From NCBI RefSeq assembly GCF_000717595.1, contig NZ_JNZO01000028.1, positions 37,709 to 101,708 on the forward strand: a stretch of 64,000 nt of DNA, read 5' to 3'. The position numbers and the translations under genes were made by a program. Each line of letters opens with the position of its first letter. Position 1 is the first letter of the stretch. The notes beneath the pieces are model-generated. The model made no database searches. It was not told the DNA's origin and saw only the letters and a list, made by a program, of their open reading frames with translations. The stretch is from Streptomyces flavochromogenes. Its GTDB lineage: Bacteria > Actinomycetota > Actinomycetes > Streptomycetales > Streptomycetaceae. Positions 45,929 to 64,000 of this stretch are shown one piece after another.

Positions 45929-47422
45929 ATGAGTCATGCCCCCACACCGCCCGCAGCCGATGCCCGGCGCGAGACGGTCATCGTCTTCGCCCTGAGTCTC
46001 GCCGCCATGGTCGTCTCGATGATGCAGACCCTGCCGGTCCCGATCCTCGGCCTCATCCGCACCGACCTCGGCACCTCCACGGCCAACGTGAGCTGGGTGA
46101 CCACCGCCACGCTGCTCTCCGCCGCCGTCTTCACCCCGCTGCTCGGCCGCTTCGGCGACCAGCACGGCAAGAAGCCCACCCTCGTCGCCGTTCTCGGCGT
46201 CATGGTCGTCGGCTCCGTCGTCGCCGCCCTCGCGACCTCGCTGCCCCTGCTGATCCTCGGCCGCGTCCTCCAGGGCGCCGCCACCGCGATCTTCCCGCTC
46301 GCCCTCTCCGTCCTCCGCGAGGAGGTCAGGCCGCAGAAGCTGCCCGGTGCCATGTCCCTGGTCAGCGGCACCCTCGCCTTCGGCAGCGGCCTCGCGCTCG
46401 TCGCGACCGGCCTGCTCACCTCCGGCTCCGACGCCGACTACCGCAGCGCCTTCTGGATGGCGACCGGCTTCGCCGCGCTCGCCCTGCTCGCGGTCGTGTT
46501 CCTCGTCCCCGCGACCCGCCACAAGACGGGCGGCCGGACCGACTTCCTCGGTGCGCTGACCCTCGGCATCACGCTGCTGCTGCTCCTGCTGCCCATCTCG
46601 CAGGGCCACGAGTGGGGCTGGGCCTCGGCCCGGACGCTCGGCAGCTTCGCCGGCGCGGCCGTCATGGCGGTCGTCTGGGTCCTCGTGGAGCGGAAGGTCC
46701 GCGAACCGCTCGTCGACATGAAGATGTTCGTCCACCGTCCGGTCCTCATGGCCAACCTGGCCGGCATCCTCGTCGGCTTCGGCATGTTCGCGAACTTCCT
46801 GGGCGTCTCCTACCTCGTCCAGATGCCCGAGGCCCTCACCGGCTACGGCTTCGACGCGTCCATCCTGCGTGCCTCCGTGCAGTTCCTGCTGCCCGGTGCG
46901 ATCGTCTCGCTGCTCGCCTCCCCGGTCGGCGGCCAGCTGGTCCGCCACCGTGGACCGCGCACGGCCCTCGCCCTGGCCGCGGGCCTCGGCGCCGTCGGCT
47001 TCGCCTGGCTCGCCCTCGGTCACGGCCACACGGCATCGGTGATCGGGGCGGGGGTCGTCGTCGGCGCGGCCGTCAGCTTCGGGTACGCGGCCATGCCGGC
47101 CGTCATCATGTCGAGCGTCCCGCACCACCAGAGCGGCATCGCCAACGGCATCAACTCCATCTCCCGCTCCACGGGCAGCGCGATCGGCAGCGCGGTCGTC
47201 ACCACGATCCTCGCCTCGCAGACCATCGAGCACCTCCCGGCCGGCGTCCCGTCGCTGCCGGCGGAGTCCGGCTTCACCCTCACCTTCTGGATCGGTGCCA
47301 CGGCCTTCGCCCTGGTCGCGGTGATCGCGGGCCTCGGCCTGCGCGGGCGCGCGGGGACCCGCCCGGCCGAGGGGACGCCGTCCGCCGCTGCCCCCGCTCC
47401 CGAGAAGGCGTCGGTGTCCTAG
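45929..47422 (+). CDS. MFS drug-efflux transporter, DHA2 (14-TM) type
   Basis: 497 residues from the ATG at 45929. Fourteen membrane helices. Motif A, LLGRFGDQHGKKPTLV, follows TM2, and GRVLQGAATAIFPLALSVLRE is the motif region around TM4. LVERKVREPLVDMKMF is the usual loop before TM7. It resembles EmrB/QacA-type exporters. Divergent MarR control suggests an inducible antibiotic or toxin pump. Confidence 0.92.
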   Translation: MSHAPTPPAADARRETVIVFALSLAAMVVSMMQTLPVPILGLIRTDLGTSTANVSWVTTATLLSAAVFTPLLGRFGDQHGKKPTLVAVLGVMVVGSVVAALATSLPLLILGRVLQGAATAIFPLALSVLREEVRPQKLPGAMSLVSGTLAFGSGLALVATGLLTSGSDADYRSAFWMATGFAALALLAVVFLVPATRHKTGGRTDFLGALTLGITLLLLLLPISQGHEWGWASARTLGSFAGAAVMAVVWVLVERKVREPLVDMKMFVHRPVLMANLAGILVGFGMFANFLGVSYLVQMPEALTGYGFDASILRASVQFLLPGAIVSLLASPVGGQLVRHRGPRTALALAAGLGAVGFAWLALGHGHTASVIGAGVVVGAAVSFGYAAMPAVIMSSVPHHQSGIANGINSISRSTGSAIGSAVVTTILASQTIEHLPAGVPSLPAESGFTLTFWIGATAFALVAVIAGLGLRGRAGTRPAEGTPSAAAPAPEKASVS

Positions 47423-47432
47423 TCGAGGCCTC

Positions 47433-47506
47433 TTCGCCGGAGCGGCGCTCGGAGATCGGCCGGCACCCCGGGTGTCGGTCTCCTCACCGAGCGTCGCTCC
47501 GGCGAA
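47433..47506 (+). terminator. Large structured terminator after the MFS gene
   Basis: TTCGCCGGAGCGGCGCTCGG (47433-47452) pairs with 47487-47506 over 20 positions with one G-U. The 34-base loop itself folds (CCGGCACCC/GGGTGTCGG). It lies 11 bp after the MFS stop. Confidence 0.85.
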
Positions 47507-47855
47507 TCTTCACATCGTGCAAGAGGAGGGGGTGACTCCCCTTGTGGGGCCCCTCGATGCGACGGCCGCTCTCCCGCCGTTTGAGGGGCCTATGTCCCCT
47601 TGCGTTCCGCCGGGGCGACGGAGGGGTCATTTCTGTTACTCGATCCTGCGGAGAACCTGTGACGATCTCCTGGCGATCTGCCAGATAGATCGAAACGCCC
47701 TTCGATTCGGTGATGAATTCGTGTGCCGCAGCACGTCAACTCGGTTGGCCGGGCAACCCGTTCGCGTGCTTACATCTGCACATCGCGGCCGCCGTCGAAC
47801 GGTGCTTGATTCCGGCCGGGTAAAAACATTCACATGAATTGAAGGGTGCGCACAC
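47507..47855. promoter_or_regulatory. Long AT-richer leader region of the precursor-peptide gene
   Basis: About 350 bp without a credible gene, noticeably lower in GC than its surroundings from about 47625 on (e.g. CGATTCGGTGATGAATTCG, GTAAAAACATTCACATGAAT). It must hold the promoter of the 72-aa peptide gene; GAAGGG at 47841-47846 is its ribosome-binding site. I cannot assign a clear -35/-10 pair. Confidence 0.5.
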
Positions 47856-48074
47856 ATGCGTAACGACATCGAGACCCGTGAGATCGCCGACGCCGAGCTG
47901 GACGCCGTTTCCGGCGGCCTCGCCATCTCCGGTGGCCTCGCCGGCGCCGTGGTCGGCGACGTCAGCACCGTCCTCGGCACCGTGACCTCGCTCCAGACCG
48001 TCCAGGGCGTGCAGGCCCTGCCGGGCGTCGTCACGGGCCTCGCCGGTGTCAACGTCGGTATCGCCGGTCTCTGA
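47856..48074 (+). CDS. Double-glycine-leader precursor peptide (bacteriocin/RiPP-like)
   Basis: 72 residues. The leader MRNDIETREIADAELDAVSGG is a textbook double-glycine leader: acidic, with the ELxxVSGG pattern and GG at 20-21. The 51-residue core begins [12 protein letters not shown] and is made almost only of Gly, Val, Ala, Leu, Thr, Ser and Gln, with no Cys, Trp, Tyr, Phe, Lys or Arg. The motif SGGLA is repeated (19-23 and 25-29), giving a second possible cleavage site after residue 27. HlyD-like and two NHLM-type ABC genes follow, so it is the probable export cargo. A terminator separates it from them, favouring high peptide expression. Activity is unknown. Confidence 0.8.
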   Translation: MRNDIETREIADAELDAVSGGLAISGGLAGAVVGDVSTVLGTVTSLQTVQGVQALPGVVTGLAGVNVGIAGL

Positions 48075-48085
48075 GCGGCATATCC

Positions 48086-48121
48086 GTGAACCCCGGAACG
48101 CATTCCCGTTCCGGGGTTCAC
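48086..48121 (+). terminator. Strong hairpin after the precursor gene
   Basis: GTGAACCCCGGAACG (48086-48100) pairs perfectly with CGTTCCGGGGTTCAC (48107-48121). It begins 12 bp after the peptide stop and precedes the export genes. It probably lets only part of transcription continue, as in other precursor-plus-transporter loci. Confidence 0.88.
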
Positions 48122-48204
48122 AGCTGCCCTTGCCGCCCATGGCGGGCGGACTTCTGCCGGTCAATTCGGCAGCCCCGTAAAGAATGCAGTCGGAGGAAGA
48201 GTCC

Positions 48205-49011
48205 GTGCAGTTCCGTCAGAAGGCGCTTTCCAAGCTGCAATCGCCCGAAGAACTCGACCTGCCGGTACGGTTCGCGCGCCCGCAGGGCCGGCTCGTGCTC
48301 GCGGTCACCGTCGTCGTGATGGCCGCCGCGACCTTCTGGGCATTCACCGGATCCGTGTCCTCCAAGCTGAGCGCGCCCGGCATTCTCACCCGAGCCGAGG
48401 GCAGTTACCTCCTGCAGAGCCCGTTCGCCGGACAGGTCACCGCCGTCCACGCCGAGGAGGGACAGTCGGTGTCCCCGGACGCACCCCTGCTCACGGTCCG
48501 GACGCCGCAGGGCGACAAGGACGTCCGCGTGGTCGAGGGAGGGCGGGTGACGAGCCTCCTCGCCAAGACCGGTCTCGTCGTCGCCACCGGCGCCGACGTG
48601 GCGACCGTGGAACGCGTGAAGAACCCGGACGACCCGCTGGTGGCCATGCTCTATGTGCCCGGCGGCAGCGGCGCGGCCATCCCCGTCGGCGCCCAGGTCG
48701 ACCTCGGCGTCCAGTCCGCCCCCCAGCAGCGGTTCGGTGTGCTCCGCGGCCGGGTCAAGGCCGTCGGCCGCGCCCCCCAGACAGCGGCGCAGATCAGCGG
48801 CTTCCTCGGCGACAGCGGGCTCGCCGCGCAGTTCGCCCGGCACGGCAACCCCGTCGCGGTGCTCGTACAGCTGGAGCGCTCGGCCGCGACCCCGTCCGGC
48901 TACCGCTGGTCCTCGGCCGACGGGCCGCCGTACGCCGTCGACTCCACGACGCCCGTCACCGGAACCGTCCACCTCGCCGCGCAGCGCCCCGTCGACTGGC
49001 TGCTCCCGTGA
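48205..49011 (+). CDS. HlyD-like bacteriocin secretion (membrane-fusion) protein, NHLM type
   Basis: 268 residues with GTG start at 48205, selected for the CGGAGGAAG 8-10 bases upstream; an in-frame ATG at 48184 lacks one. A short basic N-terminus (VQFRQKALSKLQSPEELDLP), one membrane helix at about 31-48, then an extracytoplasmic biotinyl-lipoyl-like hairpin (YLLQSPFAGQVTAVHAEEGQ; DAPLLTVRTPQGD). The N-terminal sequence matches NHLM secretion proteins. It links the two ABC transporters and guides the processed peptide out. The C-terminus (PVDWLLP) lies in a 47-bp tandem duplication. Confidence 0.85.
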   Translation: MQFRQKALSKLQSPEELDLPVRFARPQGRLVLAVTVVVMAAATFWAFTGSVSSKLSAPGILTRAEGSYLLQSPFAGQVTAVHAEEGQSVSPDAPLLTVRTPQGDKDVRVVEGGRVTSLLAKTGLVVATGADVATVERVKNPDDPLVAMLYVPGGSGAAIPVGAQVDLGVQSAPQQRFGVLRGRVKAVGRAPQTAAQISGFLGDSGLAAQFARHGNPVAVLVQLERSAATPSGYRWSSADGPPYAVDSTTPVTGTVHLAAQRPVDWLLP

Positions 49012-49093
49012 CCGCGTCGCCCGACACGACCCCCCAGCTCGATTGGCCGCTCCCGTGACCGCGTCGCCCGACACGACCCAGACCCCCCAGCTC
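48994..49093 (+). repeat. 47-bp tandem duplication across the HlyD stop / transporter start
   Basis: Copy 1 (48994-49040) and copy 2 (49041-49093, with a few extra bases) both read GACTGGCTGCTCCCGTGACC-like and continue through CGCGTCGCCCGACACGACC to CCCCAGCTC. Each contains a GTGA stop/start overlap. The first (49008) starts only a 16-codon frame, ending at the second GTGA; the second (49055) starts the transporter. Confidence 0.9.
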
Positions 49094-51361
49094 CCGCCCG
49101 CCGGGCACCGGCGGCACCGCCCCGAGCCCCAGGGCGGCAGCCGGCGCCGCCGCCCCGAGCCGGCAGGCCGAAGGCCCCGACGCCGCGCGTCCGTCCCGAA
49201 GGGCCGTACGCCCCGCCCCGTGCGCACCCCCACCGTGCTCCAGATGGAGGCGGTGGAGTGCGGCGCCGCCGCGCTCGCCATGGTGCTCGGCCACTACGGC
49301 CGATTCGTCGCCCTGGAGGAGCTCCGCATCGCCTGCGGCGTCTCCCGCGACGGATCCCGCGCCAGCAACCTCCTCAAGGCGGCCCGCAGTTACGGCCTGA
49401 AGGCCAAGGGCATGCAGATGGACCTGGCGGCGCTCGCCGGAGTGGAGCCGCCGGCCATTCTCTTCTGGGAGTTCAACCACTACGTCGTCTACGAGGGCAT
49501 CGGGCGCCGTCTCGGCCGCCGTGGCGTCCACATCAACGACCCGGCCAAGGGCCGGAGATTCGTGCCCATGGACGAGTTCGACACCAGCTTCACCGGCGTC
49601 GTGCTCACCTTCGAGCCCGGCGAGGGCTTCCGCCGCACCGGGCGCAGGCCCGGCGTCATGGGCGCGATGCCCGCCCGCCTGCGCGGCACCTCGGGCACCC
49701 TGCTCGCCGCCGTGCTCGCCAGCCTCCTCCTCGTCGCGGTCGGAGCGGCGATACCCGCGCTGAGCCGTACGTACATCGACATGTTCCTGATCGGCGAGCA
49801 GACGTCCCTCCTCGGTGTGCTCTTCGCATCGATGGCGGCGGCCCTGCTGCTCACGGCGGTGCTCACCCTCCTCCAGCAGTCCAACCTGCTGCGCGGCCGC
49901 ATCATCTCCTCCACGCTCGGCAGCGCCCGCTTCCTGCGGCATCTGCTCCGGCTTCCCGTCACCTTCTTCTCCCAGCGCAACCCGGCCGACCTGGTCCAGC
50001 GCCTGCAGTCCAACGACGCGGTCGCCGAGACCCTGGCACGGGACCTCGCCGCCGCCGGCGTGGACGCGGTGGTCGTGGTCCTCTACGCGGTGCTGCTCTG
50101 GACGTACGACCCGCAGCTGACGGTCGTCGGCATCGGCATCGCGCTGCTCAACGTCGTGGCCATGCGGATCGTGATCCATGTGAGGGCCACCGACACCCAG
50201 AAACTCCGCGCCGAGAGCGCCCGGCTGACCAACACCTCGTACAGCGGTCTGCAGCTCATCGAGACGATGAAGGCCACCGGCGGCGAGGACGGCTTCTTCC
50301 GCCGGTGGGCGGGTCAGCACGCCGTCACCCTCGACGTGCAGCAGCGCCTCGGCGTGCCCAGCATGTGGCTCGCGATCGTCGCCCCGACGCTCGCCGCACT
50401 CAACAGCGCGCTGATCCTGATGATCGGCGGCCTGCGCGCGGTGGAGGGACACCTCTCGGTCGGCCTGCTCGTCGCCTTCCAGGCCCTCATCACCAGCTTC
50501 ACCACGCCGATCACCCGCCTCAACGGCGTGGCCGGCCGCATCCAGGACTTCGCGGCCGACGTCGCCCGGCTCAAGGACGTCGAGAACTTCCCCGTCGACC
50601 CGATCTACTCACGGCGCGAGCCGCCCGCCGCCACCCGCCGGCTCAAGGGCCATGTGGTGCTCGACGGCATCACCTTCGGCTACAGCCCGCTCGACGCCCC
50701 GCTCCTGCAGGACTTCTCGCTCGCGGTCGGCCCCGGGCAGCAGGTCGCGCTCGTCGGTGGCTCCGGCAGCGGCAAGTCCACCGTCTCGCGGCTGATCTCC
50801 GGGCTCTACGCCCCCTGGGAGGGCACCATCCGCATCGACGGCATGCGGCTCGAGGACATCCCGCGCGGCGCGCTCGCCGCCTCCGTCTCCTTCGTCGACC
50901 AGGACGTCTTCCTCTTCGAGGGCACCGTCCGGGACAACGTCGCCCTCTGGGACCCGTCCATTCCCGACGAGGCCGTCGTGGCCGCCCTCGAGGACGCCGC
51001 CGTGTACGAGGTGGTCGCGCGCCGCCCCGGCGGCATCCACAGCCGGGTCGAGCAGGACGGCCGCAACTTCTCCGGTGGCCAGCGCCAACGCCTGGAGATC
51101 GCGCGGGCGTTGGTGCGTCGTCCCAGCGTCATGGTCCTCGACGAGGTGACCAGTGCCCTGGACGCGTCGACCGAGCGCCTCGTCATCGACAACCTGCGGC
51201 GCCGGGGCTGCGCCTGCGTGGTCATCGCCCACCGGCTGAGCACCGTCCGCGACAGCGACGAGATCGTCGTCCTGGAGCGGGGCACCGTCGTCGAGCGCGG
51301 GCGGCACGAGCAGCTGCTCGCGGCGCGGGGCGCGTACGCCGAACTGGTCAAGGAGCACTGA
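49055..51361 (+). CDS. NHLP-type bacteriocin export ABC transporter with C39 peptidase domain
   Basis: 768 residues from the GTG at 49055. A Pro/Arg-rich N-terminal tail (1-55) precedes a C39 protease: Gln63 and Cys69 in LQMEAVECGAAAL, His142 in FNHYVVYE, Asp162 in INDPAKG. All catalytic residues are present, so it can cleave after GG. Six membrane helices (about 225-500) follow. The ATPase domain has Walker A GGSGSGKST (about 568), signature FSGGQRQRLEIARAL, Walker B VMVLDEVTSALD and H-loop IAHRLS. It should remove the leader of the 72-aa peptide during export. It overlaps a mini-frame by GTGA. Confidence 0.92.
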   Translation: MTASPDTTQTPQLPPAGHRRHRPEPQGGSRRRRPEPAGRRPRRRASVPKGRTPRPVRTPTVLQMEAVECGAAALAMVLGHYGRFVALEELRIACGVSRDGSRASNLLKAARSYGLKAKGMQMDLAALAGVEPPAILFWEFNHYVVYEGIGRRLGRRGVHINDPAKGRRFVPMDEFDTSFTGVVLTFEPGEGFRRTGRRPGVMGAMPARLRGTSGTLLAAVLASLLLVAVGAAIPALSRTYIDMFLIGEQTSLLGVLFASMAAALLLTAVLTLLQQSNLLRGRIISSTLGSARFLRHLLRLPVTFFSQRNPADLVQRLQSNDAVAETLARDLAAAGVDAVVVVLYAVLLWTYDPQLTVVGIGIALLNVVAMRIVIHVRATDTQKLRAESARLTNTSYSGLQLIETMKATGGEDGFFRRWAGQHAVTLDVQQRLGVPSMWLAIVAPTLAALNSALILMIGGLRAVEGHLSVGLLVAFQALITSFTTPITRLNGVAGRIQDFAADVARLKDVENFPVDPIYSRREPPAATRRLKGHVVLDGITFGYSPLDAPLLQDFSLAVGPGQQVALVGGSGSGKSTVSRLISGLYAPWEGTIRIDGMRLEDIPRGALAASVSFVDQDVFLFEGTVRDNVALWDPSIPDEAVVAALEDAAVYEVVARRPGGIHSRVEQDGRNFSGGQRQRLEIARALVRRPSVMVLDEVTSALDASTERLVIDNLRRRGCACVVIAHRLSTVRDSDEIVVLERGTVVERGRHEQLLAARGAYAELVKEH

Positions 51362-51362
51362 G

Positions 51363-54302
51363 GTGACGTCCCCCCATCCCGCCCCCGCAGCCGTGGACCC
51401 GGTGGTGGCCGCCCTGGGCGGGCTCGGCACGCCCCTCGACTGCACGGGCCTGCGCAGCCTGTCCCTGGAGGGGCCGCTCGTGCTGTGGCTCGTCGTCGAG
51501 GGCGAGCTCGACCTGTTCGCGATCGACGCGGCGCAGGAGGGCCACTGGCACTTCCTGGGCCGCCTGTCACCGGGCACACTGCTGCTGGGCCCCGCCGAGG
51601 GCCCCGGCCACACCCTGATCGGCCGCCCCCTGCAGGGCTGCCTGCTGCGCCGCATCGAACTGCGCGAGCTGCAGCCCTACGGGCACGAGGCCTACGGACA
51701 GGGGCAGTACGGGCACGGGGCGTACGGGCAGGGAGCGTACGGCCACGACGGTTACGGACAGGGCCGGTTCGGGCCCGAGACGTACGGGCCGGGGGAGTAC
51801 GGCGTCGCCGAGGTGCCGTTGAGCCCCTTGGAGAACGCCTTCGCACTCGGCATCGGGCGCGGCCTGCGCGTCCTCTACCAGGCGCCCCTTGAGAGCCGCG
51901 CCACCGCAGGCCCGGGCGCCGCTGACGACGACGTCCTGTGGATGCAGATCACCCCGGGCAGCGTGCGGTACGGCGCCGTGTACGAGGGGTACGACGGATA
52001 CGACACCGCGGCGGCGCTCCTCGTCGACGGGGCGATGTGGCAGGGCATGGTCGACCAGCAGTACCGGCTGCTGTACGCCCTGGACAACTGGATCGAGCAG
52101 GTCGAGCGCGCCCACGAGGACCGCACGGCGGCCGGCATCCAGGCCGGCGAGGCCGCCCGTACCCAGGCGGACCAGGCCCTGCTCGCCTCCATCGGCCGCT
52201 CCGGCGGCCGGTCGCGCGGGGCGGCCGGCCGCGGCGGGAGCGACGACGCGGCCTTCGCCGTGTGCCGGCTGGTCGCCCGCGAGGCGGGCATCACCCTGTC
52301 GGAGCCGGTCGGGTCCGGCGCCGACGCCGGGCGGCTCGACCCGGTCGAACGCATCGCGCTCGCCTCACGGATCCGCACCCGGGCCGTCAGCCTCCACGGC
52401 CGCTGGTGGCGCGAGAACAGCGGCCCCCTGGTGGGACGGCGGGAGCGGGACGGCACACCGGTCGCCCTGCTGTGGCGGCGCGGCGGTTACGAGGCCGTCG
52501 ACCCCGTCACCGGCGCCCGGGAGCGCGTGGGCGCCGGTGACGAGGGCACCTTCGGATCCGGCGCCGTGATGTTCTACCGCCCACTGCCCGACGGCAGGCC
52601 GGGCCTGCTGCGGCTGCTCCGGTTCAGTCTGCGGGGGACCGGCGGGGACCTGCGCAGCCTCCTCGTGGGCGGTCTTGTCGCGGTCGGCCTCGGCGCGCTC
52701 GTCCCCATCGCCACCGGCAAGGTCCTCGGCGAGTACGTACCGCGGGCCGAGGACAGCCTCATCGTGCAGACGGCGCTCGCGCTCATCGCCGCCGGTGTCG
52801 TCTCGGCCGCCTTCATGCTGCTGCAGAACATCGCGATCCTGCGGGTGGAGGGCCGTATCGAGGCCACCCTCCAGCCGGCCGTCTGGGACCGGCTGCTGAG
52901 GCTGCCGGTGACGTTCTTCGCCGGCAGCTCGACCGGAGAACTGGCGAGCGCGGCCATGGGCGTCAGCGCCATCCGCAGCGTGCTCTCCGGCATCGGTTCG
53001 GTCTGTCTGCAGGCGAGCACCGTCGGCACGATGAACCTCGTCCTGCTGCTCTTCTACAGCGTGCCGCTGGCCCTGGCCGCGCTCGCCATGCTGCTCGTCA
53101 TCGCCGTCCTCTTCCTGGGGCTCGGGCTGTGGCAGCTGCGGTACCAGCGGCGGCTGCTCACCCTCGGCAACAAGCTCAACAACCAGGCGTTCCAGACCCT
53201 GCGCGGGCTGCCCAAGCTGCGCGTGGCCGCCGCCGAGAGCTTCGCCTACGCCGCCTGGGCCCGGGAGTTCGCCCGCACCCGGGAGCTCCAGCAGCGGATC
53301 GGCCGCATCAAGAACGTCATCACCGTCCTCAACGCGGTCTGCCCGCCGCTGTGCATGCTGGTGATGTTCATGCTGCTCGCGGGACCCGCGAGGGGCAGCA
53401 TGTCCGCCGCCGAGTTCCTCACCTTCAGCACGGCCGTGACGATCCTGCTGTCCTCGGTCACCCAGCTGACCGGCGCGCTCATCTCGGCTGCCGCCGTGCA
53501 GCCGATGTTCGAACAGATCGGCCCCGTCTTCCGGGAGACCCCCGAGGTGCGCGGCTCCAGCACACGGCCGGGGGTGCTGAGCGGGGCGGTCGAGGCGAAG
53601 AACCTGTCCTACCGGTACACGGAGGACGGTCCGCTCGTCCTGGACGACGTGTCGGTCCAGGTACGGCCCGGTGAGTTCGTCGCGATCGTCGGGGCCAGCG
53701 GCTGCGGCAAGTCGACCCTGCTCCGTCTGCTCATCGGCTTCGACCGGCCGGTCGCGGGCAGTGTGCTGTACGACGGCCAGGATCTGGCGGCGCTCGACCG
53801 GGCGGCCGTACGCCGGCAGTGCGGCGTCGTCCTGCAGAACGCGCAGCCGTTCTCCGGCTCGATCCTCGACTGCATCCGCGGGGCGGAGCCGTACCCGCCG
53901 GAGGAGGCCTGGGAGGCGGCCGCCATGGCCGGTCTGGCCGAGGACATCAAGGCCATGCCCATGGGCATGCACACCATGCTGTCCGACGGCGGGGGCACGG
54001 TCTCCGGCGGGCAGCGCCAGCGGCTGATGATCGCCCAGGCCCTCATCCGCAAACCGCGCGTCCTCTTCCTGGACGAGGCCACCAGTGCCCTGGACAACGA
54101 GGCGCAGCGCGTCGTCATCGAGTCCACGCGCACGCTGCGCGCCACGCGCGTCGTGATCGCCCACCGGCTGTCCACGATCATGGACGCCGACCGGGTGATC
54201 GTCATGGCGGACGGCCGGGTCGCGCAGCAGGGACCGCCGGCCGAACTTCTCGCCGACACGAGCGGCCCGTTCCACGCGCTCGTACGCCGTCAGCTCGGCT
54301 GA
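51363..54302 (+). CDS. NHLM-type bacteriocin export ABC transporter permease/ATPase without peptidase
   Basis: 979 residues, GTG start one base after the previous stop, AAGGAG upstream. Residues 1-410 are the large N-terminal NHLM domain (LDCTGLRSLSLEGPLVLWLV; WWRENSGPLVGRRERDGTPV) of unknown role, interrupted at 106-146 by a Gly/Tyr repeat. Residues about 420-720 hold six membrane helices. ATPase: Walker A GASGCGKST (about 777), signature VSGGQRQRLMIAQAL, Walker B VLFLDEATSALD and H-loop IAHRLST. It is the usual companion of the C39 transporter in NHLM export systems, probably acting as a pair with it. Confidence 0.9.
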   Translation: MTSPHPAPAAVDPVVAALGGLGTPLDCTGLRSLSLEGPLVLWLVVEGELDLFAIDAAQEGHWHFLGRLSPGTLLLGPAEGPGHTLIGRPLQGCLLRRIELRELQPYGHEAYGQGQYGHGAYGQGAYGHDGYGQGRFGPETYGPGEYGVAEVPLSPLENAFALGIGRGLRVLYQAPLESRATAGPGAADDDVLWMQITPGSVRYGAVYEGYDGYDTAAALLVDGAMWQGMVDQQYRLLYALDNWIEQVERAHEDRTAAGIQAGEAARTQADQALLASIGRSGGRSRGAAGRGGSDDAAFAVCRLVAREAGITLSEPVGSGADAGRLDPVERIALASRIRTRAVSLHGRWWRENSGPLVGRRERDGTPVALLWRRGGYEAVDPVTGARERVGAGDEGTFGSGAVMFYRPLPDGRPGLLRLLRFSLRGTGGDLRSLLVGGLVAVGLGALVPIATGKVLGEYVPRAEDSLIVQTALALIAAGVVSAAFMLLQNIAILRVEGRIEATLQPAVWDRLLRLPVTFFAGSSTGELASAAMGVSAIRSVLSGIGSVCLQASTVGTMNLVLLLFYSVPLALAALAMLLVIAVLFLGLGLWQLRYQRRLLTLGNKLNNQAFQTLRGLPKLRVAAAESFAYAAWAREFARTRELQQRIGRIKNVITVLNAVCPPLCMLVMFMLLAGPARGSMSAAEFLTFSTAVTILLSSVTQLTGALISAAAVQPMFEQIGPVFRETPEVRGSSTRPGVLSGAVEAKNLSYRYTEDGPLVLDDVSVQVRPGEFVAIVGASGCGKSTLLRLLIGFDRPVAGSVLYDGQDLAALDRAAVRRQCGVVLQNAQPFSGSILDCIRGAEPYPPEEAWEAAAMAGLAEDIKAMPMGMHTMLSDGGGTVSGGQRQRLMIAQALIRKPRVLFLDEATSALDNEAQRVVIESTRTLRATRVVIAHRLSTIMDADRVIVMADGRVAQQGPPAELLADTSGPFHALVRRQLG
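51678..51799 (+). repeat. In-frame Gly/Tyr-rich repeat inside the NHLM transporter
   Basis: About eight imperfect copies of a five-residue unit (YGHEA, YGQGQ, YGHGA, YGQGA, YGHDG, YGQGR, FGPET, YGPGE), about 15 bp each, with the DNA core TACGGNCANGG. Being in frame, it can expand or shrink without breaking the gene. Confidence 0.85.
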
Positions 54303-54470
54303 CAGCAGCCCCGGCGGGGATACGTGGAGAGGGCACAGGCCGGAATCCGAGCCTCCCGGACGGAAAAGCCCGAACGCCTCGACGGAAGGGCTTTCGATCA
54401 GGGAAGCTGTCTCCAACAGGCCTTCATATAGGCGCAGTTGAGCACTTTCCGCATCAATCCGGGGGAAAAG

Positions 54471-55025
54471 ATGACGAGATCCGCTCACCGTTGGCTGGCA
54501 CGCGCGGCAGGCGCGGCGGCCACCGCGGTACTGATAACAGGGGGCACGGCCGGCGTCACGTACGCGGCCGAGACGGACCGCGAGGCCGCGTCCATCGTGG
54601 CGTACGACCCCAGCGTCAACAGCACGGCGAACTTCGCGGTCGTCGCGACCACGCATCCCGACACCGTGGGCTGCAACGGCTACAAGGTGACCGGGTCGGG
54701 AACCGCCAGCGGCAAGCCCACCACCGGCGGGACCTGGACACAGGACGAGGTGGTGTGTACCGCGACCATCCCCGGCAAGTACGACATCAAGGGGACGGGG
54801 ACGATCACGGAGAGCGACGGCGACAAGCTCACCATCAGCTACGCGCTCACCGCGCCGCTGACCTCGGACACCCTGGTCTACCCGACCGGCACGTTCAAGA
54901 TCACCGGCGGGACCGGCAACTACGCGTTCGCGACCGGCAGCGGCAAGATGAACGCCCGGGTCAACCTGCTGGACCACGACCACGTGACCTCCACGATCAT
55001 GGGAGACATCCTGTTCACGGGCTGA
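54471..55025 (+). CDS. Secreted beta-rich protein (allene-oxide-cyclase-barrel-like)
   Basis: 184 residues from the ATG at 54471 (GGGGGAAAAG upstream). Signal peptide to about residue 33 (LARAAGAAATAVLITGGTAG ... YAA). The mature part is beta-rich with two cysteines (VGCNGYK, VVCTATI), probably one disulfide. The C-terminal pattern FKITGGTGNYAFATGSGKMN resembles the TGGTGxYxxAxGxG strand pair of AOC/dirigent-like barrels; this is weak, from memory. It follows the export genes by 168 bp on the same strand. It might be an immunity or accessory protein, or unrelated. Confidence 0.75.
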   Translation: MTRSAHRWLARAAGAAATAVLITGGTAGVTYAAETDREAASIVAYDPSVNSTANFAVVATTHPDTVGCNGYKVTGSGTASGKPTTGGTWTQDEVVCTATIPGKYDIKGTGTITESDGDKLTISYALTAPLTSDTLVYPTGTFKITGGTGNYAFATGSGKMNARVNLLDHDHVTSTIMGDILFTG

Positions 55026-58568: not shown

Positions 58569-61500
58569 TCAGTGGGCGTCGAGAGCCTGGCGCAGCTCGT
58601 CCGCCAGGACCCGCAGCCGCTCACCGCGCATCACCGTGTAGTGGTCGCCGGGTACGTCGACGAGGGCGGCGTCGCCGGGGAAGTACTCCATCCAGCGGGA
58701 AGCGGTCTCGACGGACGCACCGCCGTCCGCGGCCCGCAGCGACAGCACGCGGCCCGCGAAGGGGCTGGGCGCGTACCGCAGCAGGGCACGGTAGTTGCTC
58801 TGGAACCGGCCGACGATCGAACTCAGCGTGTCGAGGTCGATGTCCTCGGACAGCGCCCCCGCCGCACGCGCCTCGGCGTGCAGTACCTCCACCGGCGGAC
58901 GGCCGTCGAACGCCTCGGCCGGCAGCTCCCACCGCACCCCGGCGAGGCCCGCCAGGTCCCGGGCGAACCAGGACAGCAGCACTTCGTCGGAGACCGGCGC
59001 GCCCTCGGCAGGACCGGGCCGCTCCATCAGGTCGACCACGGCGAGCAGTTCCACCTCGGCCCCCGCCGCGGTGAGCTGGGTCGCCATCTCCAGGGCGATC
59101 ACGCCACCCATCGACCAGCCGCCGACCCGGTACGGGCCGTCCGGCAGCGCCTCACGGACCGCGGCGACGTAGTGGGCGGCCATGTCCTCGACGCTCGGCA
59201 GCTCCGTGTCGGGGAGCTGCAGCGCGTAGAACGGCTGGTCGTGGCCCAGGAGTTCGGCGAGTTCCGCGTAGCAGAGCACGTCACCGCCGACCGGGTGGAC
59301 GAACACCAGCGGAGTCCGGCATCCCGTGGTGCGCACCGGCACGAGCGCCCTGCGGCCGTCCTCGACGCTGCCGGCCTGCCGGACCGCCTGGGCGAGCAGC
59401 TCGATGGTCGGCCGGGCGAAGAGGCTGGACAGCGGCAGGCTGCGGCCCAGACCGCGGGCGATCCTGGCCATCAGACGCACAGCGAGCAGCGAGTCCCCGC
59501 CGAGGTCGAAGAAGCTCGCGGTCACCCCGATCTCCGTGACGCCGAAGAACTCCGCCCAGATCTCGGCGAGTCGGCGTTCCACCTCGTCGCGAGGGGCGAC
59601 GAAGCCGGCGCCTTCGACGGCGACCTCGTCGGGTGCGGGCAGCGCCGCCCGGTTGACCTTGCCGTTGTCGCTGAGCGGAAGCTCGTCCAGGACGAGGATG
59701 CGCTGCGGCACCAGGTGCTGCGGGACCACCTTGCGCAGCGACTCGGTGATCCGCTGCTCGGTGTCGTCGCGCCCGTCGTCCAGGACGACGTACGCGATCA
59801 GCCGCTTGGGCCCGTGCTGCTCGCCCGCCGCGACGACCGCGGCGGCCCGTACGCCCTCGCACTGGGTGAGAGCGGCCTCCACCTCGCCCAGTTCGATGCG
59901 GTAGCCCTGGATCTTGACCTGCGAGTCCTGGCGGCCGAGGAACTCGATGGTGCCGTCCGGCAGGAAGCGTCCCAGGTCGCCGGTGCGGTAGAGCCGCTCA
60001 CCGGAGACCGGGTGGTGCAGGAAGGCGGCGCTGGTCTTGGCCTCGTCGTTCAGATAGCCGCGGGCCAGACCGACACCGGCGATGTAGAGGTCGCCGGGCA
60101 CCCACACGGGGCACGGTCGCATCGCGTCGTCGAGCACGTGGAAGCGCTGGTTACGCATCGCCTTGCCGTAGGGGATGCTGACGCAGTCCTCGTTGACCTC
60201 CCCGATGGGGTGCAGGATCGACCAGATCGACGCCTCGGTGGCGCCGCCGAGGCTCCACAGCTCGGCGTCCTCGATGAGCAGCCGGATCCGGCCCGGCAGG
60301 TTCACCGGGATCCAGTCCCCGCTCATCATGACCAGTCGCAGCGGCAGCCCGGTGAGCCGGTTCGCGAGGGCGTGCTCGGTGAACATCTCCATCAGCGCGG
60401 GCACGCTGTTCCAGATCGTCACCCCGTGCTCGGTGACGAGCTCCGCCCAGCGGGCGGGCTCGCGGTGCGCGGACGGCTCGGGCAGCACCAGGGCACCGCC
60501 CGCCGACAGCAGTCCGAAGACGTCGTAGACCGACAGGTCGAAGTGCATCGCGGACAGTCCGAGGGCCCGGTCCGCCGCGGTGACGCGATAGCGCTCGTTG
60601 ACGTCGACGACCGTGTTCAGGGCCGCGCCGTGCTCGATCATCACGCCCTTGGGCAGCCCGGTGGAACCCGACGTGAAGATCACATAGGCGAGGTCGGTGG
60701 GCTTGGCGCCCGACGGCCCGAGCGGCTCGAGCCGACCGCCCGGCTCCCCGTTCGCGGCGTCGTCCTGCCCGCCGGCCTCTTCGTCGGCCCGCACCACGGT
60801 CCGCGCCACGCCCTGCGGCCAGTCGGCGATGTCGTCCACCCACGGCTGGGTGACCACCCGGCTGATCCCGGCACTGTCGAGCAGCACATGCAGCCGCTCG
60901 GCGGGCACCCGGGCGTCGATCGGCACGTACGCCGCCCCCGCCCGCAGGATGCCGAGGGCCGCGACGACCTGCTCCCAGCCCTTGTCCATGACGATGCCGA
61001 CCAGGTCACCGGGACCGGCCCCCAGCGCACGCAGCCGGTGACCCACCTGGTGCGACCTGCGCTCGATATCCGCGTACGTCAGGGTCAGCGACCCCGTGAT
61101 GACCGCGGGCGCGTCGGGCGTCTCCGCCGCCCGCGCGAGCACGGCGTCGTGCAGCAGCCCGTCGGGCACCGGCCCGTCGGTGGCGTTGGCCTCGGCCCGT
61201 ACGTCCAGGTCGGCGACGGGCGCGAGGGCGGGCCTGGGCCGCTGCCAGGCCGCCGCGTCGCGGGAGAGATCACGCAGCGTCCGCTGGTAGGCGGCGAACA
61301 TCGCGTCGATGCAGCCCGCGGGGAACAGCTCCTCGATCACGTCCCAGTTCAGGAGGAGCTCACCGGCCTCCTCGACCGCCTGGTGGTCCAGCCACACTTG
61401 CGGGGTGCGGACCGAACTGCTCACCTGACGGCCGTTCTCACCGATCCCGGCGAGATACTGCACGACTCCACCGCGCTCGCCGTCCTGCTGACCGGCCATG

Positions 61501-64000
61501 TTCACCAGGCTGGTGAAGACGACCGGCGCGGCGGCCCGCACCGAGGCGCCGCGCGCCCGGTTCAGCTCCCGGAGCACCTGCACACCGCTGACCTGGCTGT
61601 GCTCCATGTCGCTCCACAGCCGGCTCTGGACATCGGAGGCGCGGGCGGCGAACGAGTCGGTCGCCGAGTCGCGGATCTCCAGCATCAGGGTCGTCGAGAA
61701 CTGACCGATGACGTCGCCGACCTGCGGGTGCAGCGGCAGCCGGTTGAAGTAGAGCAGGTTCAGGGAGAAGTCGGGAGTGGCACTCCACTCCGCGATGACC
61801 TGCGCGTACGCGGTGCACAGCGCCGCCGAGGGGCTGACCCCGGCCGCCGCCGCGTGCTGCTTGAACCGGTCCCAGTCCTCCCTGGCCAGGGTCGCGCCAC
61901 GGTGGTTGAACACCGGCCGCTCCAGGCTCGACGGGCTGACGGCCAGCGGCAGCTGGGGCGCGGGCGGCAGGGTGTCGAGCCGGTCACGCCAGTAGGCGAG
62001 GGCCCGGTCGTACTCGGGTCCCGCCTCCAGGGCGCGGGCCTCCCTGACGTAGTCCCGGTAGCGCAGCCGCAGTTCGGGCAGCGTCTCACCGCGGTAGTGC
62101 GCCGCCCACTCCTTGAACAGGATCGACGTGCTGAAACCGTCGATGATCAGGGCGTCGAAGCCCGCGTGCAGCCGGATCACCCGCTCGTCGATACGGGTCA
62201 CCCGTACGTCGAACAGGGGCCAGCGCGCGGTGTCGAAGACCTGGTGCCGCATCTCCTCGTGCACGGCGACCAGTTCGGCCTCGCGCTCGGCCGGCTCCAG
62301 GGCGGAGGCGTCGGTCTCCCGGATCACATAGGCCGGGACGTCGCGCTGGATGCGCTGCTCGCCCTCGGCGGTGAAGACCGCCCGCAGCATGTCGTGGCGC
62401 TCGATCATCGCCCGGAAGGACGCGCCGAGCCGGTCCAGGTCCACGTTCTCCAGGTCGATCTCGATCTGGAAGTACGTGGAGGTGTTGCCGAGTTCGAAGG
62501 CGTCACCGCGGCCCACGAGATAGGCCTGCTGGAGGTCGGTCAGACCGAACGGCTCGTAGCGCTCGGAGTCGTCCTCGACGACGACGGCTTCGCCGTCGGC
62601 CCGTGGGGCTTCCGTCTCCGTGCCCTCGTGGCTCCCCGTGCCGGAGCCGAGGGCGGCCAGGATGTCGTCGGCGATGTCCTCGGTGTTGCGGCCTTCGAGG
62701 AACGCCGCCATCGGCAGCAGGACGTCGAACTCCTTGTTCAGCGTCGTCCGGATCTTCATCGCGATCAGCGAGTCCAGACCGAGCGCCTGCAGTGACTGCC
62801 TGGCGTCCAGCCGGGCAGCCGTGGTCCCGAGGGCACGGGCGACGGTCCGGGTCACGAAGGCCCGCGCCGCGTCGGGCTCCACGGCGGGTGCCGCCTCGAC
62901 CGCTTCGGCCGGGGCCGTCGTGGTGGTGCCGGCCGGGGCCACGACGCGCGGGGGCGCCGCGAGCGCCGGAGCCGGGGCCCGCACGGCCTCGGGTCCCTGG
63001 TGCGCCGCCGGGGCTTGCGCCGTCTCGGCCTCGGCCGCAGACCGGGTCAGGGCGGGGACGAAGCGTACGCCGTCGGCCTCGGCCACCAGTCGGCCGTTCG
63101 CCGAGACGAGCCGGATACGGGCCCGGGTGCCGCCTTCGAACAGTTCGGCATGACATCGGAGCCCGTCCTGGGGGCCGCCGCGGTCGTAGTGGACGAAGCG
63201 TTCGAGACCGGCCGGCACGAGAGCCGGGCCGTCCGCCGGGAAGCAGGCCAGCGCGGTCTGGAACATCGCGTCGACGAGCCCGGGGTGGATCACGTACGCC
63301 TCGGTCTCGCCGGGCACGGCGGACCGGATCTCGGCGGTGGCCTCGTTCCGGCCGAGCCTGATCCGCTCCACCCAGCGGGCGGCGGAGCCCAGGTACAGGG
63401 CACGCTGCCACAGCAGTCGGTACAGCTCGTCACCGGTCAGCTCGCGGCCCGACCCGCCCGCAGCGAGCGCCACCGTCGGCGCCGCCGTCGCCCCCGACCG
63501 GGCCAGGGCCTGGGCGTGCAGCTGCCAGCCACCGGCCGGGTCCTGCGCGTAGTAGCCGAACTGATCGCCGTTCACGACGAGTTGAGCCGCACGCTCGGCA
63601 CCGGCCGGTGCGAGCGCCAGATCGACGGGCAGCTCCAGGTCCTGCAAGGACACCGGCCCCGATCCGCCGAGTTCGGTGACCGCCTCGATCAACGACTCCA
63701 CGAACACTCCGGCGCTGACCACCGGCCGCCCGCCGACCACGAAGTCACCGAGGCAGGGGTGCGCCGACGGGTCGAGCGGCGGGGAGAACTGCGCCCGCGC
63801 GAGCGGCGACGACGGCAGACGTGCACCCAGCAGGCTTGCCGACTCGGCGGCCGGCCCCACCGGAAGAGGCGCAGCGGGCGCCGCCGAAGGGGCTTCCGGT
63901 ACGAGCCAGTAGTGCTGGCGTTGGAAGGGGTAGGGGGGGAGTTCGATGGTGTGGGGTTGGTAGGGCTGGAGGAGTGTGGGCCAGTCGATGGTGGCGCCGT
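58569..64000 (-). CDS. Hybrid PKS-NRPS megasynthase, C-terminal part: (KS-AT)-DH*-ACP-Cy-A(Cys)-PCP-TE
   Basis: Open at the window edge. 63861-64000 encodes the post-AT linker LPPYPFQRQHYWL, so KS-AT lies upstream. A dehydratase-like domain follows (about 63035-63785), but the catalytic HxxxGxxxxP is FVVGGRPVVS (His to Phe, Pro to Ser); HPGLVDAMFQ keeps the second Asp. Next: ACP (LGLDSL, about 62770); a heterocyclisation domain (about 61250-62560) with LTDLQQAYLVGR and the Cy motif DALIIDGFS in place of HHxxxDG; an adenylation domain (about 59640-61200); PCP (LGGDSL, about 59500); and a type I thioesterase (GWSMGG, about 59115). A-domain contacts FDLSVYD, IWNS, MMSGDW and GGATEASIWS give a code close to DLYN-x-SLIWK, i.e. 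cysteine. Predicted output: a polyketide ending in a thiazoline carboxylate or derivative. Confidence 0.93.
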   Translation of the reverse strand, partial: GATIDWPTLLQPYQPHTIELPPYPFQRQHYWLVPEAPSAAPAAPLPVGPAAESASLLGARLPSSPLARAQFSPPLDPSAHPCLGDFVVGGRPVVSAGVFVESLIEAVTELGGSGPVSLQDLELPVDLALAPAGAERAAQLVVNGDQFGYYAQDPAGGWQLHAQALARSGATAAPTVALAAGGSGRELTGDELYRLLWQRALYLGSAARWVERIRLGRNEATAEIRSAVPGETEAYVIHPGLVDAMFQTALACFPADGPALVPAGLERFVHYDRGGPQDGLRCHAELFEGGTRARIRLVSANGRLVAEADGVRFVPALTRSAAEAETAQAPAAHQGPEAVRAPAPALAAPPRVVAPAGTTTTAPAEAVEAAPAVEPDAARAFVTRTVARALGTTAARLDARQSLQALGLDSLIAMKIRTTLNKEFDVLLPMAAFLEGRNTEDIADDILAALGSGTGSHEGTETEAPRADGEAVVVEDDSERYEPFGLTDLQQAYLVGRGDAFELGNTSTYFQIEIDLENVDLDRLGASFRAMIERHDMLRAVFTAEGEQRIQRDVPAYVIRETDASALEPAEREAELVAVHEEMRHQVFDTARWPLFDVRVTRIDERVIRLHAGFDALIIDGFSTSILFKEWAAHYRGETLPELRLRYRDYVREARALEAGPEYDRALAYWRDRLDTLPPAPQLPLAVSPSSLERPVFNHRGATLAREDWDRFKQHAAAAGVSPSAALCTAYAQVIAEWSATPDFSLNLLYFNRLPLHPQVGDVIGQFSTTLMLEIRDSATDSFAARASDVQSRLWSDMEHSQVSGVQVLRELNRARGASVRAAAPVVFTSLVNMAGQQDGERGGVVQYLAGIGENGRQVSSSVRTPQVWLDHQAVEEAGELLLNWDVIEELFPAGCIDAMFAAYQRTLRDLSRDAAAWQRPRPALAPVADLDVRAEANATDGPVPDGLLHDAVLARAAETPDAPAVITGSLTLTYADIERRSHQVGHRLRALGAGPGDLVGIVMDKGWEQVVAALGILRAGAAYVPIDARVPAERLHVLLDSAGISRVVTQPWVDDIADWPQGVARTVVRADEEAGGQDDAANGEPGGRLEPLGPSGAKPTDLAYVIFTSGSTGLPKGVMIEHGAALNTVVDVNERYRVTAADRALGLSAMHFDLSVYDVFGLLSAGGALVLPEPSAHREPARWAELVTEHGVTIWNSVPALMEMFTEHALANRLTGLPLRLVMMSGDWIPVNLPGRIRLLIEDAELWSLGGATEASIWSILHPIGEVNEDCVSIPYGKAMRNQRFHVLDDAMRPCPVWVPGDLYIAGVGLARGYLNDEAKTSAAFLHHPVSGERLYRTGDLGRFLPDGTIEFLGRQDSQVKIQGYRIELGEVEAALTQCEGVRAAAVVAAGEQHGPKRLIAYVVLDDGRDDTEQRITESLRKVVPQHLVPQRILVLDELPLSDNGKVNRAALPAPDEVAVEGAGFVAPRDEVERRLAEIWAEFFGVTEIGVTASFFDLGGDSLLAVRLMARIARGLGRSLPLSSLFARPTIELLAQAVRQAGSVEDGRRALVPVRTTGCRTPLVFVHPVGGDVLCYAELAELLGHDQPFYALQLPDTELPSVEDMAAHYVAAVREALPDGPYRVGGWSMGGVIALEMATQLTAAGAEVELLAVVDLMERPGPAEGAPVSDEVLLSWFARDLAGLAGVRWELPAEAFDGRPPVEVLHAEARAAGALSEDIDLDTLSSIVGRFQSNYRALLRYAPSPFAGRVLSLRAADGGASVETASRWMEYFPGDAALVDVPGDHYTVMRGERLRVLADELRQALDAH

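Follow-up and report, generated by a model that had tools for sequence, protein, structure and literature searches.

The locus considered here raises the question of what a streptomycete exports when a small peptide gene with a double-glycine (GG) leader is followed by a full NHLM-type transporter set and no modification enzyme lies beside it. The locus resides in a 64,000-nucleotide stretch of Streptomyces flavochromogenes DNA (the window) and consists of four genes, all on the plus strand, in the order peptide, short HlyD-type adaptor, C39-peptidase ABC transporter and second ABC transporter (Table 1). The anatomy of this cassette gives good support to the export of a hydrophobic peptide that lacks Cys and is unmodified. 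The further proposal, that the peptide is exported to the hyphal surface and has a morphogen-like role there, is given an even chance and is weighed below against three alternatives.

Table 1. Features of the peptide export cassette and its downstream neighbor (window coordinates).
Feature	Coordinates	Strand	Remarks
Promoter-like element GRTTSG-N16-CRTGCTTNNATC	47743..47776	+	conserved; single 0-mismatch site in genome
Precursor peptide, 72 aa, ATG start	47856..48074	+	leader 1-21 ending GG; 51-aa hydrophobic Cys-free core
Hairpin, 15-bp stem, without T-run	48086..48121	+	between peptide stop and HlyD
Short HlyD-type adaptor, 275 aa	48184..49011	+	TIGR03794-like, just below cut-off
C39 peptidase / permease / ATPase	49055..51361	+	TIGR03796; GTG start inferred
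Second ABC permease / ATPase	51363..54302	+	TIGR03797
Secreted protein, 184 aa, predicted 8-stranded barrel	54471..55025	+	neighbor in closest relatives only, outside conserved cassette

The original prediction, a GG-leader precursor accompanied by a dedicated C39 export set, is confirmed by the peptide open reading frame (ORF) together with the transporter scores: against TIGR03796 (cut-off 853.3) the ORF at 48653-51361 reaches 1009 bits, and the second ABC protein reaches 870.9 bits with TIGR03797 (cut-off 709.4). The HlyD-type protein, which is short relative to the 421 positions of the TIGR03794 model, scores 152.7 bits against a cut-off of 156.2; this cut-off is passed in 27/247 Streptomyces genomes, and a short adaptor would fit an organism without an outer membrane. 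The start of the C39 transporter is, from the sequence, most likely the GTG at 49055. At the HlyD/transporter junction (49001-49100), a 47-bp tandem duplication moves this start from GTG 49008, which is now followed by 16 codons and a stop, to GTG 49055; gene spacing suggests that the duplication is present in two related loci (L069 and L070) and absent from a third (L071). The second ABC protein carries an N-terminal low-complexity repeat of the YGxx type (window about 51672-51806) that is variable among close relatives.

Conservation of the cassette was assessed in the best 80 of 566 confirmed transporter relatives, a sample that leans to close kin because only the best were kept. Four of the 80 were left out of the peptide test, two being cut at contig ends (L099 and L100) and two lacking HlyD with a match that begins at the contig edge (L102 and L110), and a second, spurious ORF was dropped from the peptide set in L069 and L138. 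Loss of the peptide gene from orthologous loci had been named as evidence that would count against the prediction; instead, a GG-leader peptide lies upstream of HlyD in 76/76 testable loci, which with the window make up the 77 loci referred to below. The catalytic triad of the C39 peptidase, predicted to be intact, is recovered as motif contexts (Q..C, H and D) in 77/77 loci by regular expression, a count that depends on the breadth of the pattern (19/77 with a narrow expression, 77/77 with a broader one). Both ABC genes are present in 80/80 loci and HlyD in 78/80, the latter counted by tblastn because the gene caller missed some HlyD genes. When ORFs are clustered over 81 neighborhoods (the 80 and the window), the peptide is found in 72, HlyD in 54 (undercalled) and the ABC genes in 81, all at fixed positions, and no further companion recurs above 17/81, the next clusters having 17 and 14 members; these counts are lower bounds owing to contig ends. 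Thirteen other clusters occur in at least six loci, and the seven representatives scanned are ordinary genes, including a SpoIIE-type phosphatase and a secreted protease. Neither a linked immunity gene nor a receptor or regulator gene beside the cassette recurs in the 81 neighborhoods.

The absence of a modification enzyme beside the peptide, noted for the window, extends to its relatives for the enzyme types probed. Six probes of the LanM, RamC-like, YcaO and oxidase types (four taken from the S. flavochromogenes genome, two taken from a divergent Streptomyces locus, G181) detect no lanthionine or azole enzyme, whether LanM-, RamC- or YcaO-type, in the same 80 loci. In 3/80 loci the RamC-like probe alone gives a match, through its kinase portion, and the matched stretches are protein kinases. 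Elsewhere in the S. flavochromogenes genome, LanM- and RamC-type genes are present on other contigs, and a search for the SPASM radical-SAM domain gives no match.

The peptide gene is single copy in the S. flavochromogenes genome. Its product is considered more than a chance ORF because of the size of the matched family: (i) at E <= 0.01 the window peptide matches 96 proteins, itself counted, which where named are from Streptomyces or Kitasatospora, and (ii) a profile of the second leader group finds at least 1155 proteins at E <= 0.001 (best 7987 candidates scored). The leaders fall into two groups, of 24/77 and 53/77 loci, with the window counted in the smaller, group I. The group I leader reads MRNDIETREIADAELDAVSGG and the group II leader MNSTPQVETxEISDADLDNVSGG. 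Since Gly20-Gly21 is common to both groups and the second GG (26-27) is a feature of group I alone, cleavage after residue 21 appears likelier than cleavage after residue 27. The resulting window core (residues 22-72) contains none of the residues C, F, W, Y, K, R and H and has a computed average mass, unmodified, of about 4658. Across the 77 loci, the cores are 44-62 aa long, have a net charge of -4.3 to -0.1 and a hydropathy of 0.34 to 1.25, and end in AGL at the C-terminus in 66/77. Cys occurs in 0/77 cores, bearing out the predicted Gly/Val-rich, Cys-free hydrophobic composition, while aromatic residues occur in 6/77, Lys or Arg in 11/77 and His in 17/77. One Cys-bearing member (P0050) is noted among the 96 proteins, and the cores of two others (P0077 and P0088) look frame-shifted relative to their kin, which may reflect sequencing errors. 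A PDB search with the peptide profile gives chance-level matches, and the structure model of the peptide is poor (pLDDT 54).

The original prediction regarded the locus as undescribed, which is wrong because the same four-gene arrangement has already been published for Streptomyces coelicolor, as SCO0753-SCO0756 (PMC6629963, accessible text). There, SCO0753 is described as a hydrophobic peptide of 77 aa that lacks cysteines; its gene precedes a type I-like secretion operon that the authors state is conserved in many Streptomyces. In both systems a small hydrophobic peptide without Cys is encoded immediately ahead of HlyD and two ABC genes; they differ in that the S. coelicolor peptide is the longer and probably belongs to group II, since the S. 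violaceoruber member (P0110) is group II, whereas the window peptide belongs to group I. Going by this published description, the window peptide gene is probably of the SCO0753 kind. In a strain with an activated SCO5282 sensor and dispersed growth, SCO0753 is the single most overexpressed gene, and in a SCO5282 null mutant it is almost silent; control of the SCO0753-type cassette by SCO5282/SCO5283 is thus published for S. coelicolor, in a text from which the terms 'binding site' and 'ChIP' are absent (PMC6629963). An effect of SCO0753 on the hyphal surface is proposed by the same authors, the dispersed phenotype being that of a regulator mutant with many changed genes (PMC6629963). Elsewhere, in the accessible parts of the respective papers, SCO0753 is up-regulated in an aor1 mutant (PMC5733086), sco0756 is among up-regulated efflux genes (PMC5882110) and SCO0756 is given as bacteriocin biosynthesis (PMC6414726). 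Within the literature in reach, which includes few subscription journals, no paper was found that tests the function of a SCO0753-type peptide.

The cassette also shares its transporter set with the NHLM/NHLP systems (TIGR03794/03796/03797; families defined in PMC2887384), with HlyD just under the cut-off. It differs from these systems in its short precursor leader, which is not of the NHLP/Nif11 type, and in that no YcaO or LanM gene was found beside it. No model of an NHLP/Nif11-type leader matches the window peptide; TIGR03793 matches 2/47 family members (best E 0.041), and TIGR03798 does not appear in the list of matching families (25 of 28 shown). Beyond the published arrangement, new here are a promoter-like element almost confined to the locus, a covarying hairpin, and the co-diversification of peptide and transporter.

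The distribution of the cassette was determined in an evenly drawn panel of 247 Streptomyces genomes. The peptide profile matches 185/247 and the HlyD model 187/247 (E <= 1e-20), with both matches in 184, the peptide alone in one (G138, in which transporters are present on inspection), HlyD alone in three (G026, G036 and G181) and neither in 59. In G026 the match lies on a 3.2-kb contig ending at the HlyD start. In G181 (locus L174), a divergent NHLM locus lies beside a YcaO and a nitroreductase-type oxidase, in an azole-type cluster whose transporters are 35-51% identical. Roughly three in four of the Streptomyces genomes in the panel thus carry the cassette, which is dispensable, as about a quarter lack it. 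Among 147 genomes of the order, mostly Streptomyces, 106 are matched, in 2/5 genera; Actinacidiphila and Streptantibioticus have one locus each with the cassette among the named loci. Two variants of the peptide arrangement are noted. In G138 (locus L172), two different leader-sharing peptides stand in tandem before one NHLM transporter set. In G358 and G347 (loci L175 and L176), paired GG-leader peptides rich in Gly, Val and Ser have no NHLM genes within 16 kb; it is possible that these pairs are extra cargo of the same pump.

The promoter-like element upstream of the peptide (GRTTSG-N16-CRTGCTTNNATC) is common to both leader groups, and its GTGCTT part lies 66-160 nt before the peptide start. 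The spacing of 19 nt between the TTG-type and TTTGAT-type hexamers suggests an activated promoter. The element is anchored in 66/77 loci; nine are without an exact anchor, several of these having a near variant, and in two the element is too close to the edge of the 200-nt stretch. In the S. flavochromogenes genome, this locus alone gives a 0-mismatch match. The exact element occurs in 125/247 genomes, once in each, against none for the reversed control; about 60 or more cassette genomes are therefore without it. Of the 125 matches, 104 lie on the same strand within 2.5 kb upstream of a listed HlyD, and of the other 21, 14 fit the peptide coordinates by eye, six could not be checked and one (G023) has neither hit. 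The element is almost confined to the cassette locus; its presence there is partly circular, as the pattern was derived from these loci, whereas its near absence elsewhere is not.

A long hairpin of 12-20 pairs is found 3' of the peptide stop in 77/77 loci. Its folding energy (mean -34.7, weakest -27.9 kcal/mol) compares with a mean of -19.3 and a strongest value of -27.9 kcal/mol for equal upstream stretches, and with a mean of -18.1 and a strongest value of -32.8 kcal/mol for mononucleotide shuffles, one per locus. In the 39/77 hairpins tested, 92.2% of cells pair, a test that leans towards pairing because the hairpins were picked by folding, and sliding the partners abolishes pairing. Covariation is evident in 54 cells changed on both sides versus 14.1 in shuffles, while further pair types (24 versus 20.8 shuffled, matched by 37/500 shuffles) are less telling. 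TTTT within 20 nt after the hairpin is seen in 0/77 loci, and no Rfam family matches within 47400-48300. An RNA exclusive to the locus was considered and rejected, as a genome search with the covariance model also turns up hairpins at other sites, though weaker ones (of 22 rows at E <= 1, two are this locus, on both strands). The hairpin is probably terminator-like and likely functions as a partial terminator or RNA stabilizer. The simplest reading is a partial terminator that keeps pump levels below those of the peptide; it fits the published log2 changes of S. coelicolor, where SCO0753 changes by 6.3 and the transporter genes by 4.25-4.4 (PMC6629963).

Peptide and pump appear to have diversified together, since the leader group changes once on the transporter tree (quick method) compared to a mean of about 20.7 when shuffled. 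The core itself evolves fast. Its dN/dS is 0.78 over 29 pairs, picked greedily from 311 equal-length pairs and including some that look misaligned; restricting the set to pairs with core differences of <=30% (25 pairs) gives 0.55, and to those at <=15% (16 pairs) 0.36, the selection of similar pairs lowering dN/dS by construction. By comparison, the leader has a dN/dS of 0.28-0.29 and the transporter one of 0.12. A structural peptide would be expected to show strong purifying selection on its core; this was not found, and the core seems to be constrained in composition more than in sequence.

In the favored reading, the peptide would be expressed from its own promoter, and the hairpin after its gene would lower read-through into the transporter genes. 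The C39 transporter would cleave after Gly21 and export the 51-aa core without chemical modification, and, judging from what is known of these families, the short HlyD and the other ABC protein would take part in export. The neutral-to-acidic hydrophobic core would then act at the hyphal surface or matrix of the producer as a morphogen-like agent, not a toxin. This surface role is favored on account of the genus-wide presence of the cassette, the lack of a recurrent immunity gene, the lack of net positive charge and the published regulation. Against it, the fast core fits a bacteriocin or relaxed constraint, and the cassette is missing from about a quarter of the genomes.

SapB and SapT are lanthionine-bridged and require Cys and a Lan enzyme. 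They resemble the peptide proposed here in being secreted Streptomyces peptides that act at the hyphal surface (SapB, PMC6629963), but the window peptide is without Cys and no Lan enzyme was found beside its gene. A second parallel is offered by EbfG1-4 and PteB of Synechococcus elongatus, in which small GG-motif proteins with C39 export are surface and matrix components, not toxins (PMC4997328, PMC9981879, accessible parts); their surface/matrix, biofilm or amyloid role is described for Synechococcus, and the likeness to the Streptomyces peptide is drawn here as an analogy. More tentatively, and at somewhat less than an even chance, the cassettes may represent a Streptomyces-wide class of unmodified, Cys-free, fast-evolving peptide morphogens that, with their own promoter and C39 pump, coat or condition the hyphal surface. 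If so, unmodified peptide morphogens would stand beside the lanthipeptide morphogens and chaplins.

The strongest alternative, though less likely, is a class II unmodified bacteriocin, the core of which would insert in the membranes of competing actinomycetes with self-protection via the transporters or an unlinked gene. The GG leader and C39 exporter are as expected of such a peptide, and the fast evolution of the core keeps this reading alive. Weak matches at E up to 1 point the same way (TIGR01847 in 13/47 members, NF038167 in 21/47 and PF10439 in 12/47). Gly-zipper_OmpA is also weakly matched, in 4/47. The helix-period hydrophobic moment of the cores (0.119 versus 0.083 in shuffles, 18-residue windows) is a hint only, because the sequences are related and not independent, and the strand-period moment is hardly above its shuffles (0.121 versus 0.115 at 170 degrees). 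Arguing against a bacteriocin are the neighborhoods, with no linked immunity gene and no further gene beyond 17/81, the occurrence of the cassette peptide in as many as 185/247 genomes, the cores without net positive charge, and the presence of a single leader group in each transporter clade. That the peptide is a secreted signal or pheromone, to which hyphae of its own species would respond, is improbable: strong two-component regulation in S. coelicolor (PMC6629963) and variation of the core between species would suit it, but a core of 44-62 aa is long for a pheromone and no receptor or regulator gene recurs beside the cassette. Least probable is a RiPP modified by an enzyme elsewhere in the genome (e.g., Ser/Thr dehydration by an unlinked LanM), for which the LanM- and RamC-type genes on other contigs, the 8 Ser/Thr of the window core, the database name of the family (type A2 lantipeptide, although the cores are without Cys) and weak matches to PF04604 (type-A lantibiotic; 21/47 members at E up to 1, best E 0.002) speak, but against which stand the lack of the Cys of a lanthionine in all 77 cores, the lack of a lanthionine or azole enzyme at the best 80 of 566 loci, and the sole YcaO-NHLM locus seen in Streptomyces (G181), with its divergent transporters and no peptide-profile match.

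The secreted protein downstream of the cassette was suggested to provide immunity or to be a partner of the peptide, a role that is not conserved, as the gene is present in only 3/80 loci (best 80 of 566); the protein was rejected as a component of the cassette system. It is one of a family of 38 proteins at E <= 0.001, with the names given being Streptomyces, and no Pfam domain is found in it. The AlphaFold model has 8 strands (pLDDT 79.5) and resembles dirigent-type barrels: a Foldseek search with the model gives nothing at E <= 0.001, and the nearest structures are dirigent proteins (E 1.4e-3, probability 1.00, TM 0.45). Further downstream, on the minus strand (58569-63860), is a 1763-aa ORF that, from its translation, reads like a multidomain nonribosomal peptide synthetase.
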